Shown piece after piece: positions 40,926 to 47,566 of a DNA stretch of 64,000 bases; position 1 is the first letter of the stretch, and every line of letters starts with the position of its first letter. The DNA is taken from contig NZ_MVBC01000001.1 of the NCBI RefSeq assembly GCF_002007105.1, positions 558,001-622,000 of the forward strand. Direction: 5' to 3'. The stretch comes from Hymenobacter sp. CRA2. GTDB taxonomy: Bacteria; Bacteroidota; Bacteroidia; Cytophagales; Hymenobacteraceae. The translations under genes were made by a program, and so were the position numbers. The notes beneath the pieces are model-generated. The model saw only the letters and a program-made list of their open reading frames with translations, was not told the origin of the DNA and searched no databases.

Positions 40926-41609
40926 ATGAAAAAACTACTGTTCTCTTTATTCTTGACTTCCGTCGCCCCGGTGACGACGCAAGCGCAAAGCCTCGCTGGC
41001 AAAACCCTACTTACGGGCAATATCGGCTACAACAGCAACGGCCGCACCGTCCAAACGCCGGGCACGACGCAATCCGAAGCACTTGACAGGCAGTTTCAGT
41101 TTGGCGTTGGGGCGGGCTATTTCGTTGCGGAACACTTGGTGCTGGGCCTGTCAGGGAGCTATCATTTCCTGCGGCAAACCAATGAGCAGCCGGATAGCTT
41201 TGACTCAAGCATTATTCATAGCTGGGAAACCCGCAGCCATAACAGAGCGGTTGGTCCGTTTGCTCGCTACTACTTCATGCTCACCGATAAGATGGGCTTG
41301 TTTGGCCAAGCTACCGTAAGTTATTCCTGGGGTGATGCGTCAGCCGTAACGTCAAGCTCTAATACTTACCACATTACTTCCACGGGCCGCGGCGGCATGG
41401 CCCAGCTCACACCCGGGTTTGTATTTTTTCCCAGCAGCCGGGTAGGAATTGAACTTACCGCAGGCACGTTGGTAACCGGTTTTTCGAACGGCAAATCCTC
41501 ATCGGATTCTCCGGGCTCAATTACTACGAAAACCAAAAGTCAGTTCACCTCAGCCGCTTTTGGCCTTAGCCAATTGCAGCTGGGCGCCTCACTGTACCTT
41601 GGTCACTAA
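40926..41609 (+). CDS. Small outer-membrane beta-barrel protein
   Basis: 227 residues with a signal peptide (MKKLLFSLFLTSVAPVTTQAQ) and alternating aromatic strands typical of an eight-stranded barrel: GVGAGYFVAEHLVLGLSGSY, FARYYFMLTDKMGLFGQATV, LTPGFVFFPSSRVGIEL, and a last strand ending LGASLYLGH. A distant paralog lies at 46859. No specific function can be given. Codon use and base composition are less GC-rich than the neighbours. Confidence 0.82.
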   Translation: MKKLLFSLFLTSVAPVTTQAQSLAGKTLLTGNIGYNSNGRTVQTPGTTQSEALDRQFQFGVGAGYFVAEHLVLGLSGSYHFLRQTNEQPDSFDSSIIHSWETRSHNRAVGPFARYYFMLTDKMGLFGQATVSYSWGDASAVTSSSNTYHITSTGRGGMAQLTPGFVFFPSSRVGIELTAGTLVTGFSNGKSSSDSPGSITTKTKSQFTSAAFGLSQLQLGASLYLGH

Positions 41610-41671: not shown

Positions 41672-42991
41672 CTATGCGGTGGCACTGACTAGCAGCCAGG
41701 ACTTAAAGCCCGGATAGTCATTTGATAAATCAACCAGGTATTGGTCCCGGTGGCTAAGCATCTGTACTTGCCGTGGTACCTCCACCTGCGCGGCCACACC
41801 GGGCGCCAACACTTCCGGGAACTTGCACGGGTGCGCCGTGGCCAGGAATACGCCCGGGGCTGACTCGTGGGGGTGCGCCTGCCGCCACTGCTGCCAAGCC
41901 CGCCAGGCAATGGCCGTGTGCGGGCACAGCACGTAACCGTGGGCATCGAATGCTGCCTGCATAGCCGCGCGGGTTTCGTCATCGGAGTAGCTATAGCCGG
42001 TGACCAGGGCGCTGAGTCTGGCGGCATCGTCGCGGAACAGGTCGGCAATGCGGGCCCAGTTGCTGGGGTTGCCCACGTCCATGGCGTTGGCAATGGTGGC
42101 TACGGACGGCCTGGGCTGGTACTGGCCGGTGCGCAAAAAGGTGGGCACGGTGTCGTTGGCGTTGGTAGCGGCCAGAAACTGGCACACCGGCAGGCCCATC
42201 TTCCAGGCCAGCAAGCCCGCGCTCAGGTTGCCGAAGTTGCCGCTGGGCACGGAAAAAACTACTTCCCTGTGGCCCAGGCGTTGCAGCTGGGCGTAGGCCC
42301 CCACGTAGTAAAACGCCTGCGGAATCAGCCGGGCAATGTTGATGGAATTGGCCGAGGTCAGCCGGAAACGCTGGTTCAGCTCCTCGTCGGCAAAGGCCTG
42401 CTTTACCAGGGCCTGGCAGTCGTCGAAGGTCCCGTCGATTTCGAGGGCGCGAATGTTCTGGCCGTTGGTAGTCAGCTGCTGCTGCTGGATGGGGCTGACC
42501 TTGCCTTTAGGGTACAGGATGGTCACGCGCACGTTCGGCACGCCCAGAAAGCCTAAGGCTACGGCGCCGCCGGTGTCGCCGGAAGTAGCCACCAGCACGT
42601 CGAGCGGACGGCCGCCTTCCTGCGCGAGGTAGTAACCCATCAGCCGGCTCATAAACCGGGCGCCGAAGTCCTTGAACGCCAGGGAGGGGCCGTGAAACAG
42701 CTCCAGCACGTAGGTATTGGTGCTGAGCGGGACTACGGGCGCCGGGAAGCTTACGGCATCGTCGACGATGCGCCGGAGCTGCTCGGCGGGTAGCGCATCC
42801 TGCAGCAGCGCGTGGGCTACTTCGAAGGCAATCTGCGGTAAGGTTAAAGTGGGCAGCCGGGCCCAGAACTCAGCCGGCAAGCGTGGAACATCGACGGGCA
42901 TGTACAGGCCCTGGTCGGCGGGCAGGCTCTGAAACAAGGCCTTCCGGAACGGCACGCGCAGCGCCCGGTTGTTGGTGCTATACAAGTTCAT
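41672..42991 (-). CDS. thrC: Threonine synthase
   Basis: PLP enzyme turning O-phosphohomoserine into threonine. From ATG 42991 the protein has 439 residues, normal for the long class. Seen: PLP-lysine motif LELFHGPSLAFKDFGARFM, the phosphate-binding loop VLVATSGDTGGAVALGF, and VPSGNFGNLSAGLLAWKMG. Last gene of the thr operon; its start lies inside the end of thrB (14-base overlap), implying translational coupling. Confidence 0.96.
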   Translation of the reverse strand: MNLYSTNNRALRVPFRKALFQSLPADQGLYMPVDVPRLPAEFWARLPTLTLPQIAFEVAHALLQDALPAEQLRRIVDDAVSFPAPVVPLSTNTYVLELFHGPSLAFKDFGARFMSRLMGYYLAQEGGRPLDVLVATSGDTGGAVALGFLGVPNVRVTILYPKGKVSPIQQQQLTTNGQNIRALEIDGTFDDCQALVKQAFADEELNQRFRLTSANSINIARLIPQAFYYVGAYAQLQRLGHREVVFSVPSGNFGNLSAGLLAWKMGLPVCQFLAATNANDTVPTFLRTGQYQPRPSVATIANAMDVGNPSNWARIADLFRDDAARLSALVTGYSYSDDETRAAMQAAFDAHGYVLCPHTAIAWRAWQQWRQAHPHESAPGVFLATAHPCKFPEVLAPGVAAQVEVPRQVQMLSHRDQYLVDLSNDYPGFKSWLLVSATA

Positions 42992-43925
42992 GGCGGAGCA
43001 CTTTGGGCCCTTGGGCGTTGATAGGCGACACGTAGGCCTGGCTGCCGACCTGCAAGGAGGTGAGGTGCTGCTGCAGCCGCTCGGTAATGGCATGGGCAGT
43101 GGCGGCATCGTGGGCGAAGGCGAAAACCGACGGCCCCGACCCCGAAATGCCGAAGCCAATAGCCCCGGCAGCCATGGCCAGCTCGCGTAGGCGGTAGAAA
43201 TCCGGAATCAGAATGGCGCGGGCGGGCTCCACCAGCACGTCCTGCATGCTGCGGCCGATCAGGGCGGTATCGTTCAGGAACAGGCCGCTGACCAAACCCG
43301 CCACGTTGCCCCACTGCGTCACGGCGTCTTTCAGCAGCACGGTGCGGCGAATCAGCTGGCGGGCGTCGCGGGTAGGCACTTCCACATCGGGAAAGACGAT
43401 GGCGCAGTACAGCTCCGGCGGAAACGGGAGCCGCACCACGTCGAGCGGCTCGTAGCTGCGGATGAGCACGAAGCCGCCCAGCAGCGCCGGCGCTACGTTG
43501 TCGGCATGGCCGGTGCCGCAGGCCAACTCCTCCCCCAGCATGGCGAAGGGCAGCAGCTGCAGCGGCGTGAGCGGCTGGCCGAGCAGCGCATTGGCTGCCA
43601 CGAGGCCCGCTACGGTGCTGGCCGCGCTGGAGCCCAGCCCGCTGCCAATGGGCATCTGCTTGTGCAATTCGATGTCAAGACCAACGTCTTCGCGGCCGAG
43701 GTGCCGCAGGAGCTGTTGCACGCTGGCACTGACGGTGTTGTGGGCCGCGTCGAGGGGCAGGCGGCCGTTGTCGCCGGTGATGCGGCGGATGCGTACACCC
43801 GGCGTATCGGTGCGGGTCATCAGCACTTCGTCGCCGGGGGCATCGACGGCAAAACCCAGGATATCGAAGCCGCAGACCACGTTGGCGACGGTAGCGGGGG
43901 CAAATACGCGGATGGAATCGAACAT
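42978..43925 (-). CDS. thrB: Homoserine kinase
   Basis: GHMP-family kinase that phosphorylates homoserine. 315 residues. Seen: VFAPATVANVVCGFDILGFA at the N-terminus, the ATP-binding GHMP motif KQMPIGSGLGSSAASTVAG, and IGFGISGSGPSVFAFA near the C-terminus. Middle gene of the thr operon, 93 bases after thrA. Confidence 0.96.
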   Translation of the reverse strand: MFDSIRVFAPATVANVVCGFDILGFAVDAPGDEVLMTRTDTPGVRIRRITGDNGRLPLDAAHNTVSASVQQLLRHLGREDVGLDIELHKQMPIGSGLGSSAASTVAGLVAANALLGQPLTPLQLLPFAMLGEELACGTGHADNVAPALLGGFVLIRSYEPLDVVRLPFPPELYCAIVFPDVEVPTRDARQLIRRTVLLKDAVTQWGNVAGLVSGLFLNDTALIGRSMQDVLVEPARAILIPDFYRLRELAMAAGAIGFGISGSGPSVFAFAHDAATAHAITERLQQHLTSLQVGSQAYVSPINAQGPKVLRHELV

Positions 43926-44018: not shown

Positions 44019-46472
44019 CTAGCGGGTACCAACGTTGATCAGGTCGGCAAAGACGCCGGCGGCCGTGACTTCGGCGCCGGCGCCGGGGCCTTTCACCACC
44101 AGGGGGCGCTCCTTGTAGCGTTCGGTGGTGAAGGAAATGATGTTGTCGGCGCCGGAAAGTTGGTAGAACGGGTGGCTGGCATCGACCATGTCCAGCCCGA
44201 TCCGCACCTGCCCGTCTTTGAGCCGGCCGATGTAGCGCAGCACTTTGCCGGCTTGCTCGGCCTGTGCTTTCAGGCGGTTAAAGTAGTCGGCCTGGGCTTC
44301 TAGCGCCTGGTAGAACGCCTCCACCGTAGGCGCGGATAGGCAGCTGGCTGGCAGCATGGGCTCGATGATAACGTCGTCGGGCTCCAGGGCGTGGCCGGCG
44401 TCGCGGGCCAGAATGAGCATCTTGCGCATGAAGTCCCGCCCGTTCAGGTCGTCGCGCGGGTCGGGCTCGGTGTACCCCTTTTGCTGGGCTTCGCGCACGA
44501 TATCGTGGAAGGCCGCCGCACCGCGAAAGTGATTGAAGATAAACGAAATCGTGCCGGACAGGATGGCTTCAATCCGCTCGACCCGGTCGCCCGAGGTGCG
44601 CAGGTCCTTGAGCGTGCGGATGATGGGCAGGCCGGCGCCCACGTTGGTTTCGTAGTAGAAATCCACGCCGTGCTGCCGGGCCGCGTCGTGCAGGTCACGG
44701 TACTGCGCGTAGGAGGCGGAGTTGGCTATTTTATTGCACGTCACCACCGAGATGCTGGCCGCCAGCGCCTCGGCGTAGAACTCGGCCGGCTCGGGACTAG
44801 CGGTATTGTCCACCAGCACGCAGTTGGGCAGGTTCAAGGCCTTCATGCGCCCGATGAAGCCGGCCAGGTCGGCGGGCTCCGACGCGCCGTTCTGCAAGGC
44901 ATGCTCCCACGCGTCGAGGCCGATGCCGCTCGGGTCGATGAGCATGCGGCGGCGGTTACTGATGCCCACCACATTGATCTGCACGCCGTTCTGCTCACGC
45001 AGAAACTCGCGGTGCGCGTGCAGCTGCCGCAACAGCGTGCTACCGATGTTGCCGGTGCCGAGGCAGAATACGTGCAGCGTCTTGGTCAGCTCCACGAAGA
45101 AGGCGTCGTGCACCGCGTTCAGCGCTTTGGCCAGGTCGGCCTGCCCGATGATGACGGAAATATTGTACTCCGAGGAGCCCTGCGCAATGGCCCGCACGTT
45201 CACGCCGTTGCGCCCCAGCGCCTGAAATAACTTGCCGGCAATACCCGGCGTCTGCTTCATATTTTCGCCCACGATGGCCAGCACCGCCAACCCGGGCTCG
45301 ATGCGTGGCAACTCCAGCTTGCGCGCCTGCAGTTCCAGCTCAAACTCCTGCCCGATCAGCTCCTGCGCCCGCCGGGCATCGTGTGGGGCCACGGCAAAGG
45401 TGATGCTGTGCTCCGACGAAGCCTGCGTGATGAGGATAACGTTGATTTGCTCCCGGGCCAACAGCGAAAACAGCCGGCCGCTGAAGCCTGCTTTGCCCAC
45501 CATGCCGGAGCCTTCCACGTTGATGACGCTGATATCGTTGATGGAGGATATGCCCTTGATGGCCAGCGGCGAAGCCTGGCAGTCGTGGCGGATGGTGGTA
45601 CCGGCAAAGCTGCGGTCAAAGGTGTTCAGGATAACGATAGGAATGCGCTTGAGAAACGCCGGAATCATGGTCGGCGGGTAAATCACCTTGGCCCCGAAGT
45701 AGGACAGCTCCATGGCCTCGGTGTAGCTCAGCTCGGGCAACGAAAACGCCTTGCTGACCATACGCGGATCGGCCGTCATCATGCCGTTGACGTCGGTCCA
45801 GATCTGAATTTCGGTGGCATTCAGCGCGGCCCCGAAGATGGCGGCCGTGTAATCGGAGCCGCCGCGGCCCAGGGTGGTCACGCGGCCCTGCTCGTTGCGG
45901 GCGATGAAGCCGGTGACGAACAGCAGGCGGTCCGGGTGCTCCTGGCAGAAGCCGCGGATGAGCTGCTCGGTCAGCGGCGTTTCCACCCGCGCCTGCCCGA
46001 AGTGCGCGTCGGTGCGAATCAGCTCCGAGGCATCCACAAAACAGGCCTGCGGAAAGCGCGAGGCGGCAATGCTGCTGACCATGAAGGTGGAGCACCGCTC
46101 GCCGTAGCTCAGCACCAGGTCCAGCGTCTGGGCCGTCAGCTCGCGCAGGCTGCGGATGCCATGCAGCAGGTCCTCCAGCTCGTTGAAAAACAGCTTCAAC
46201 CGGGTGAGGACCGGGTTTTGGCGCGGCACTTCCAGCAGAGCTTTCACCACCTCGAAGTGACGTACTTCCAGCTCGGCGAGGTGCCGGTCGTTGGGCTGGC
46301 CCTGCGCGGCGGCCTGAGCCGCGGCCAGCAGCAGGTTGGTCACGCCGCTCATGGCCGAGAGAACCGTCACGGGCCGCTCGCCGCGGGCTAGTTCGTCGGC
46401 CACGATATCCAGCAGGGTACGGATACTCGCCGCGGAGCCGACGGAGGTGCCGCCGAATTTGAGGACTTTCAT
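44019..46472 (-). CDS. thrA: Bifunctional aspartate kinase / homoserine dehydrogenase
   Basis: Catalyses the first and third steps from aspartate to homoserine. From ATG 46472 the length is 817 residues, as for E. coli ThrA (820). The kinase domain starts MKVLKFGGTSVGSA and has FIARNEQGRVTTLGRGGSDYT; paired ACT domains at about 310-455 (INVEGSGMVGKAGFS, ENMKQTPGIAGKLFQALG) suit feedback control by threonine; the dehydrogenase starts VFCLGTGNIGSTLLRQL and contains NVGAGLPIIRTLKDL. An attenuator and threonine-rich leader peptide lie immediately upstream. Confidence 0.96.
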   Translation of the reverse strand: MKVLKFGGTSVGSAASIRTLLDIVADELARGERPVTVLSAMSGVTNLLLAAAQAAAQGQPNDRHLAELEVRHFEVVKALLEVPRQNPVLTRLKLFFNELEDLLHGIRSLRELTAQTLDLVLSYGERCSTFMVSSIAASRFPQACFVDASELIRTDAHFGQARVETPLTEQLIRGFCQEHPDRLLFVTGFIARNEQGRVTTLGRGGSDYTAAIFGAALNATEIQIWTDVNGMMTADPRMVSKAFSLPELSYTEAMELSYFGAKVIYPPTMIPAFLKRIPIVILNTFDRSFAGTTIRHDCQASPLAIKGISSINDISVINVEGSGMVGKAGFSGRLFSLLAREQINVILITQASSEHSITFAVAPHDARRAQELIGQEFELELQARKLELPRIEPGLAVLAIVGENMKQTPGIAGKLFQALGRNGVNVRAIAQGSSEYNISVIIGQADLAKALNAVHDAFFVELTKTLHVFCLGTGNIGSTLLRQLHAHREFLREQNGVQINVVGISNRRRMLIDPSGIGLDAWEHALQNGASEPADLAGFIGRMKALNLPNCVLVDNTASPEPAEFYAEALAASISVVTCNKIANSASYAQYRDLHDAARQHGVDFYYETNVGAGLPIIRTLKDLRTSGDRVERIEAILSGTISFIFNHFRGAAAFHDIVREAQQKGYTEPDPRDDLNGRDFMRKMLILARDAGHALEPDDVIIEPMLPASCLSAPTVEAFYQALEAQADYFNRLKAQAEQAGKVLRYIGRLKDGQVRIGLDMVDASHPFYQLSGADNIISFTTERYKERPLVVKGPGAGAEVTAAGVFADLINVGTR

Positions 46473-46479
46473 AGGGCTC

Positions 46480-46516
46480 GAAAACAAAAACGCCTTCCCG
46501 GGCTGGGGAAGGCGTT
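46480..46516 (-). promoter_or_regulatory. Attenuator terminator of the thr operon
   Basis: On the minus strand, an 11-base perfect stem (46516-46506 with 46499-46489, AACGCCTTCCC/GGGAAGGCGTT), 6-base loop, then TTTTTGTTTT. It ends 8 bases before the thrA ATG. The leader segment 46570-46562 (GGGACGGCG) can pair at 8 of 9 positions with 46514-46506 (CGCCTTCCC), the first terminator arm, and so could act as antiterminator. The hairpin is seen directly; the switch is inferred from the leader peptide. Confidence 0.85.
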
Positions 46517-46541
46517 GGCTGAAAGATGCAAGGCAAGGTTG

Positions 46542-46625
46542 TCAGACCTCCGTGCGCGCGCCGCCGTCCCACCCGTTGCGGGTAGTCGTTGTAGTTGTGG
46601 CGGTTGTGGTGGCGAACAGGCGCAT
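46542..46625 (-). CDS. thrL: thr operon leader peptide
   Basis: 27-codon frame, ATG at 46625-46623 and TGA at 46544-46542. It starts MRLFATTTATTTTTTR: nine threonine codons in ten consecutive positions (6-15), spelled with ACC, ACA, ACT and ACG, so the run is not a simple DNA repeat. The stop lies 25 bases before the terminator arm. This is the same logic as enterobacterial ThrL (Thr/Ile-rich), though here isoleucine codons are absent. When charged tRNA-Thr is scarce the ribosome should stall in the run and free the antiterminator segment; when plentiful it reaches the stop, masks that segment and lets the terminator form. The mechanism is inference from layout; too short for ordinary gene calling. 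Confidence 0.85.
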   Translation of the reverse strand: MRLFATTTATTTTTTRNGWDGGARTEV

Positions 46626-46812
46626 AGCGGGAACTGCCAGGGGGCAGCGGGCTAAAGAAAGGCAGCAAAGAATTGATACGCAACTTTTTCCGACTTGGCA
46701 GCGCGCTTCTCCTCTATGATGGTCAGCTGGTTACCGGGCGGCATCCTTTGCCATCCGGCACTAAAAAGCGCCTTGGGCAAGCTGGTGCTAGGTCCTTAGG
46801 GCCGGACTGCTG

Positions 46813-46820
46813 TAAGTTTG
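46813..46820 (+). promoter_or_regulatory. Bacteroidota -7 box TAAGTTTG for the gene at 46859
   Basis: Exact TAnnTTTG match 38 bases before the ATG; supports the signal-peptide start over the in-frame ATG at 46673. Confidence 0.5.
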
Positions 46821-46858
46821 ACCGTCTTTATCCTCTTCCAAATCATCCGAGCGTATTT

Positions 46859-47566
46859 ATGAAACACGTTCTTCTTTCGGCGGCCCTGCTTGGGGCGGCT
46901 ACGGCAGCCCAGGCACAGGTTGGGGCGGGTACTTGGCTGCTCAGCGGGCAAGCCAGCTATTCCCAGACCAAGCAGGAAAGCACCATCGTGCCGGGCAACA
47001 GCCAGCAGGCGGAAGTCAACAAGGTCAGCCAGGCAGTGATTATGCCCCTGGCCGGTTATTTCGTGACCGACAACCTGCTCATCGGGGTGCGCGGCGGCTA
47101 CGAAGGCCAGCGTCAGACGTCGCCGCAATACGCCGTTTCTGTTATTAACGGCAACTACACGTACCGCAAAGTCGGCGAGGCCGTGAGCAAGATCAACGCC
47201 TTGACCATTGGGCCAGCGGCGCGATACTATTATTTCCTGGGCACACAGGCCGCCTTTTACGGCGAGCTAAGCGCCGGCTACGCGAAGCGCAGCAGCGAAG
47301 ACCCCATCAGCAACCCTTATCCTCCCGGTCCGTCGGACCCTATTCGCACCGAAGCCAATGGCATGTATGGTTACCTGGCGCCGGGCTTCACCTTCTTTCC
47401 GGTCCCGAGCCTGGGCCTGGAGCTGAGCCTGCAGGGCCTGAACTACCAGCACCTCAAAATTGAGGCTAAGGACACGCCGTACAAAAGCACCCTCAGCTCG
47501 TTCGAGGCCGGCGTGAAGCTGCAGGATTTGCGTCTGGGCCTGTCGTGGTACGTCGGCCGTAAGTAA
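46859..47566 (+). CDS. Small outer-membrane beta-barrel protein
   Basis: 235 residues, signal peptide MKHVLLSAALLGAATAAQAQ. Barrel-like strands: AVIMPLAGYFVTDNLLIGVRGGY, IGPAARYYYFLGTQAAFYGEL, GYLAPGFTFFPVPSLGLELSL and the end LRLGLSWYVGRK (each cited in part). It shares layout with the protein at 40926 (YFV-preceded strand, ARYYYF, LAPGF-FFP), so the two are paralogs. Function unknown. It is divergent from the thr leader. Confidence 0.82.
   Translation: MKHVLLSAALLGAATAAQAQVGAGTWLLSGQASYSQTKQESTIVPGNSQQAEVNKVSQAVIMPLAGYFVTDNLLIGVRGGYEGQRQTSPQYAVSVINGNYTYRKVGEAVSKINALTIGPAARYYYFLGTQAAFYGELSAGYAKRSSEDPISNPYPPGPSDPIRTEANGMYGYLAPGFTFFPVPSLGLELSLQGLNYQHLKIEAKDTPYKSTLSSFEAGVKLQDLRLGLSWYVGRK

Follow-up and report, generated by a model that had tools for sequence, protein, structure and literature searches.

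The thrABC operon of Hymenobacter sp. CRA2 is preceded by a short open reading frame rich in threonine codons, which raises the question of whether this frame serves as the leader of a transcription attenuator and why it, in contrast to the E. coli type of threonine leader, contains no isoleucine codons. The window analysed here is the whole 64,000-nucleotide stretch of contig NZ_MVBC01000001.1 that carries the operon. With a probability of roughly 0.9 the thrABC leader is a ribosome-mediated transcription attenuator sensing threonine alone; its translation, the stalling of the ribosome and the control by threonine are what we infer from the sequence and its relatives. The genes, in the order thrA-thrB-thrC, and the putative regulatory elements are the following:

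44019..46472, minus strand: thrA, fused aspartate kinase / homoserine dehydrogenase (PF00696, ACT domains, PF03447, PF00742)
42978..43925, minus strand: thrB, homoserine kinase of the GHMP family (PF00288, PF08544)
41672..42991, minus strand: thrC, threonine synthase, start inferred (PF14821, PF00291; stretch searched 41672-43003)
46542..46625, minus strand: putative thr leader ORF, MRLFATTTATTTTTTRNGWDGGARTEV, 27 codons with ATG start (frame reading and related leaders)
46581..46610, minus strand: presumed regulatory codons, nine Thr in ten and no Ile (frame reading and chance test)
46562..46570, minus strand: predicted antiterminator segment GGGACGGCG inside the leader frame (pairs with 46514-46506)
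46489..46516, minus strand: predicted intrinsic terminator hairpin of 11 bp with the loop CAGCCC (hairpin scan, folding, covariation)
46481..46488, minus strand: U-tract TTTGTTTT (sequence reading, hairpin scan)
46652..46683, minus strand: candidate promoter block, TTG at 46683-46681, 20 bases, TTTCTTTAG at 46660-46652 (partial conservation in six aligned loci)

On either side of the operon, on the opposite (plus) strand, lies a gene for an outer-membrane beta-barrel protein (PF13505), at 46673-47566 and at 40926-41609. The candidate promoter block may be likened to Bacteroidota promoters.

The leader ORF starts at the ATG at 46625, 153 bases upstream of the start of thrA, and its stop codon ends at 46542. 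Codons 6 to 15 comprise nine Thr codons and one Ala codon, the Thr codons being spelled ACC (three), ACA (three), ACT (two) and ACG (one). A scan of all six frames detected a single 10-codon stretch with nine Thr codons in the whole window, and when the 64 kb were resampled 100 times with a first-order Markov model, the maximum was seven Thr per 10 codons (0/100 reached eight); the Thr run thus exceeds chance expectation. The arms of the terminator (5' arm 46516-46506, loop 46505-46500, 3' arm 46499-46489) form 11 perfect pairs with a predicted energy of -19.4 kcal/mol, and eight bases separate the end of the U-tract from the thrA start codon at 46472. Competing with this hairpin, GGGACGGCG (46570-46562) can form eight of nine pairs with CGCCTTCCC (46514-46506), the duplex with its flanks reaching -15.3. 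The first-pass annotation had described the 27-codon frame with nine Thr in ten positions in four spellings, the 11-base stem with a U-tract ending eight bases before thrA, and the alternative pairing; the frame matches base for base, the stem is borne out by both sequence and folding, and the pairing is present. A role as terminator of an upstream gene was ruled out, because the upstream beta-barrel gene reads the opposite way, and the terminator would therefore be able to act only on transcripts that start in the region between this gene and thrA.

This arrangement resembles that of E. coli and other enterobacteria, where thrL combines a short ORF rich in Thr codons with an intrinsic terminator and a competing pairing upstream of thrABC. 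The element does not belong to the corresponding Rfam family, Thr_leader (RF00506), which scored 14.4 bits (E 5) compared to a gathering cut-off of 55. By analogy the leader would be translated on the nascent RNA. With ample Thr-tRNA the ribosome would reach the stop codon and leave the 5' arm of the terminator free, so that RNA polymerase would halt before thrA. If Thr-tRNA is scarce, the ribosome would stall within 46610-46581 and leave 46570-46562 free; this segment would then capture the 5' arm of the terminator, and thrABC would be transcribed.

The conservation of these elements was analysed in related genomes. A first search provided 80 loci with a related thrA, and further searches covered 204 genomes of the family (134 matching at E 1e-120 or better) and 396 genomes of the class (117 matching). 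Among the 239 upstream stretches compared, 230 of them distinct, 115 passed the hairpin script, and 107 of these, including the window, have an ATG leader upstream of the hairpin with at least six Thr/Ile per 10 codons. The window and its 106 relatives thus share a strong hairpin with a U-tract between leader and thrA. The remaining eight loci (L155, L157, L160, L174, L184, L197, L200, L237) contain different hairpins that are not preceded by such a leader; in L197 and L200 a Thr leader is located elsewhere. Most Mucilaginibacter leaders end in Gly-Gly-Arg, and since the underlying RNA GGAGGAAG complements CTTCCTCC of the terminator 5' arm, this protein pattern is explained by RNA pairing.

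In an alignment of 31 hand-picked representatives the predicted terminator clearly covaries, with two-sided changes in eight of 12 pairs and in 40 cells compared to 11.0 +/- 2.5 in shuffles; the percentage of paired positions is partly given by construction, because the loci had been selected on the presence of a hairpin, which applies less to the two-sided changes. For the antiterminator in one fixed register, 73.2% of the cells were paired compared to 69.8% after shuffling, and two-sided changes occurred in 5 pairs compared to 4.1, a weak test because the register differs between lineages (in alignment A1 that of the window and that of Mucilaginibacter, L007, lie three columns apart). A register-free test of 22 hand-picked representatives resulted in a tail fit of 19.1 with the own arm compared to 16.9 with the arms of other lineages (permutation p 0.0004), and all 107 loci in 21.5 compared to 19.3 +/- 0.24. 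Where lineages differ in their arms, the tails differ to match, as with TGGGGG and CCCCCA (L152) and with CGGGGC and GTCCCG (L146), and taken together the comparisons suggest a moderate covariation of the antiterminator. The two comparisons proposed in the first-pass annotation both had a positive outcome: the Thr codons are conserved in relatives (present at all 80 loci of the first search, each of which falls within the 107), and the pairing of the terminator is conserved with compensatory changes in the 31 representatives. Its reading of the locus as a thr attenuator gains support from both, and weaker support from the antiterminator.

Folding of the 107 loci, in which the 5' arm was counted as captured if at least five of its bases were paired upstream, predicted capture in 105 loci for a ribosome placed at the fifth codon of the run and in two for one placed at the stop codon. 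With dinucleotide-shuffled tails the arm was still paired upstream in 70-85 of the 107 loci, since the GC-rich arm frequently finds partners in shuffled sequence as well, so that part of the folding result reflects base composition. The models therefore argue with moderate strength only that the antiterminator would exclude the terminator and would be freed by stalling.

Thr codons by themselves do not prove that the peptide is made. In E. coli trp a protector (1:2) hairpin masks the antiterminator and makes untranslated leaders terminate; folding without a ribosome left the arm paired upstream in 91 of the 107 loci, which weighs against the attenuator reading. The terminator could also be a constitutive or condition-independent premature one, in which case the run, rich in A and C and unstructured, would sense nothing; the 91 loci speak for this alternative. 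A constitutive terminator is nevertheless improbable, taking into account that all 107 leaders lie in frame behind an ATG and that Thr and Ile codons replace each other between relatives, the Ile codons furthermore tracking the IlvA domain in 37 genomes, as detailed below. The variation within the run of the window and the Hymenobacter loci L001-L004 also argues against it, affecting mostly third codon positions (six of nine sites, in addition to two first and one second positions), although these five sequences are a small sample from which L005 was excluded because it gave no gap-free alignment.

Slightly less probable still is that the leader acts on thrA by translational coupling or translational attenuation instead of transcription termination. 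Thr-rich leaders for which our scan found no comparable terminator before thrA occur in other families of the class (L186, L196, L205, L228), and part of the phylum may therefore work otherwise, but the strong hairpin and U-tract are shared by the window and its 106 relatives and covary in the 31 representatives. A T-box or riboswitch sensing threonine or another metabolite directly would likewise present itself as a structured 5' region ahead of an amino-acid operon; it appears by far the least probable of the alternatives, given that neither the stretch 46400-46900 (searched up to E 10) nor the whole window (at gathering score) contained a match. Transcription attenuation by a translating ribosome thus remains the preferred reading.

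The leader ORF of the window contains no Ile codons, as the first-pass annotation had stated, and this absence has a counterpart in the gene content. The E. coli thrL contains both Thr and Ile codons because Ile is made from Thr. In the genome of the window (99.97% complete) no ilvD, ilvC or IlvA regulatory domain was found, nor was any of them found in the eight genomes of its genus that were analysed (G000-G007), which are therefore probably auxotrophic for branched-chain amino acids. Fused thrA was detected in five of these eight genomes.

We consider it likely that Ile codons are kept only where a regulated IlvA turns Thr into Ile and that they were repeatedly lost together with IlvA, even where ilvC and ilvD remain. 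A leader was counted as Ile-less if the mean Ile count of its Thr-richest 14-codon windows was below 0.5. Among the 85 of the 107 leaders with known ilvC status, five of seven without ilvC were Ile-less compared to four of 78 with ilvC (Fisher 7e-5), and in genus g4 of the same family six of seven compared to four of 36 (Fisher 2e-4), both tests being uncorrected for kinship. Each of the 40 genomes tested had the same status for ilvD as for ilvC. A two-trait model on the ThrA tree favoured linkage of Ile and ilvC over their independence (106 tips, those of g4 chosen to include all seven without ilvC; likelihood ratio 19.8, 4 df, p 5e-4). Of the independent pairs, an average of 4.7 agreed with the link, 0.0 contradicted it (at most one in single pairings) and 2.2 showed no difference, with a median p of 0.06 (range 0.03-0.6), or 0.125 if any Ile in the ORF is counted. 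The idea that Ile codons track the whole Ile synthesis (ilvC) was rejected, since these pairs are not clear and since the C-terminal domain of IlvA (PF00585) is missing in six of the seven exceptions tested.

These exceptions belong to eight ilvC-positive genomes with Ile-less leaders, of which L120 was left out of the domain search. The six without PF00585 are L012, L020, L033, G087, G099 and G053; G054 contains the domain, and among the tied windows of its leader some include an Ile codon and others do not. Ile-less leaders were found in 17 of 20 genomes without PF00585 compared to one of 17 with it (p 1.3e-6); these 37 are the leader-bearing ones of 40 genomes chosen with knowledge of ilvC status and leaders and before the IlvA result, the other three lacking a fused ThrA. 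Parsimony requires at least eight changes of PF00585 on the tree (35 genomes); of the independent pairs an average of 5.7 agreed with the rule, 0.0 contradicted it and 1.3 showed no difference (median p 0.03). With the codon windows set to 10 or 18, or with any Ile in the ORF counted, the Fisher p values were 9e-8 to 1e-5 and the median pair p values 0.03-0.06. The IlvA rule is not followed by L005, where a single Ile immediately precedes the run, by L052, which was assembled from a metagenome, and by G127; the closest neighbour of the latter on the tree (G047) contains PF00585 and has Ile codons at the same places. PF00585 was detected in five of 14 control genomes, and since short forms of IlvA without this domain exist, a missing domain is not proof of a missing reaction.

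Outside the two clades to which these genomes belong, the rule has so far gained no support: 37 of 77 class loci (L164-L240) have a leader by a simple rule and 40 have none by that rule; no link between Ile codons and ilvC was found among these leaders (Fisher 1.0), of which 36 belong to genomes with ilvC (nine Ile-less) and one, retaining Ile, to a genome without it (G413, 95% complete). GC content as the cause of the Ile loss is countered by the overlapping values of the thrA regions in 20 g4 genomes (0.61-0.67 without ilvC, 0.59-0.68 with ilvC) and by L128, which at 0.47 is not richer in GC than its sisters (0.48-0.57); in the window's own clade (0.59-0.68) it may have contributed. Many relatives carry Ile codons in their leaders, presumably because Ile can be made from Thr. 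The window, whose lineage has neither the IlvA domain nor ilvC or ilvD and whose leader would sense Thr only, fits as one case in which Ile codons are absent probably because Ile is no longer made from Thr.

Genus g4 appears to employ a second arrangement. Most leaders found there end in Thr-Thr-Arg-stop, and the last Thr and Arg codons can form a hairpin with the stop codon in its loop (ACCCGCTAGACGGG); downstream of this hairpin the predicted antiterminator and a long terminator overlap in one common segment. Such competing segments were detected in 34 of 43 leaders compared to 0/43 in each of 20 mononucleotide shuffles, the sample (among L265-L337, L129 and L247-L263) comprising 92 of the 102 genomes with a ThrA match; 49 of the 92 gave no recognisable Thr leader. 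Several g4 leaders also carry Thr-Gly repeats. Thr-rich leaders with a similar stop-codon hairpin were found in other families of the class (L186, L194, L196, L205, L228), where the scan accepted no terminator between leader and gene. The leaders of L186, L194, L196, L205, L224, L226 and L228 end in forms such as TTR, TTP, MTPRG and MTPWG, mostly with a stop-codon hairpin and without a terminator by scan, and some of them contain Met codons beside Thr.

On the ThrA tree the proteins of the window's genus group among Mucilaginibacter and kin. A horizontal transfer of the thr operon into this genus looks possible on the tree, but it was not adopted, since the alternative grouping of the genus with g4 is not rejected (p-AU 0.11); the test does reject a tree constrained to unite g1, g4 and g5/g6 (p 0.0003).

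Two further candidate leaders were detected in the genome of the window. A trpE leader ORF (MTLASTSQLLWWWPSRFTGRD, L358 1248-1313, C14) contains three consecutive Trp codons and is followed by a GC-rich inverted repeat (AGCCCGGC...GCCGGGCT), and a hisG leader ORF (MTLVASLRFLSLPAAPHWAAAAGHAGHHHHHSSPGEE, L264 1080-1193, C2) contains five consecutive His codons. An Rfam search of both loci revealed no match up to E 1, including the Bacteroid-trp motif, which we take to be a leader-type trp element. The presence of Trp and His leaders in the same genome makes a general use of such control likelier.

The comparative prediction of attenuators of amino-acid operons by Vitreschak et al. in 2004 (FEMS Microbiol Lett) reportedly mentions Bacteroidetes/Chlorobi in its abstract, which would make thr attenuation in this phylum partly known. 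The text on Flavobacterium psychrophilum (PMC9723704) presents strong clues that amino-acid operons there are preceded by attenuators of the leader-peptide type, and these attenuators resemble that of the window in belonging to Bacteroidota, in being of the leader-peptide type and in preceding amino-acid operons; the structured 5' elements named there are those of pheA and hisG, the main text making no mention of thrA or threonine. The same text states that flavobacteria are without Shine-Dalgarno sequences. In Bacteroides thetaiotaomicron, the available text of PMC7366714 describes sORFs in long 5' UTRs as reminiscent of leader peptides. Furthermore, Bacteroid-trp RNA (RF01692) is tabulated as a Bacteroidetes motif in the part of Weinberg 2010 (PMC2864571) used here, the main text of PMC2965389 contains no words starting with bacteroid, cytophag or flavobacter, and PMC1262725, as far as its available text goes, deals with Actinobacteria. 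As leader-peptide attenuation was reported earlier in Bacteroidota, the kind of control is known. Our literature search, which had most subscription journals outside its scope, found neither a thr leader in Bacteroidota nor a link between leader codons and IlvA; a thr attenuator at this place was apparently not described before, and the new aspect seems to be the missing Ile that matches the missing route from Thr to Ile in the genome.

Thr, Trp and His leader ORFs in one genome suggest that ribosomes closely trail RNA polymerase at these leaders in a member of the Bacteroidota, a phylum described as lacking Shine-Dalgarno sequences, and the coupling of transcription and translation in the phylum would thus be testable directly via the natural reporter that such leaders offer. 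That Ile codons are linked to IlvA provides evolutionary evidence for the codons acting as sensors, and a comparable test could be applied to leader peptides in general. If the link holds true, leader peptides could reveal which end products are still fed by a branch of a pathway.
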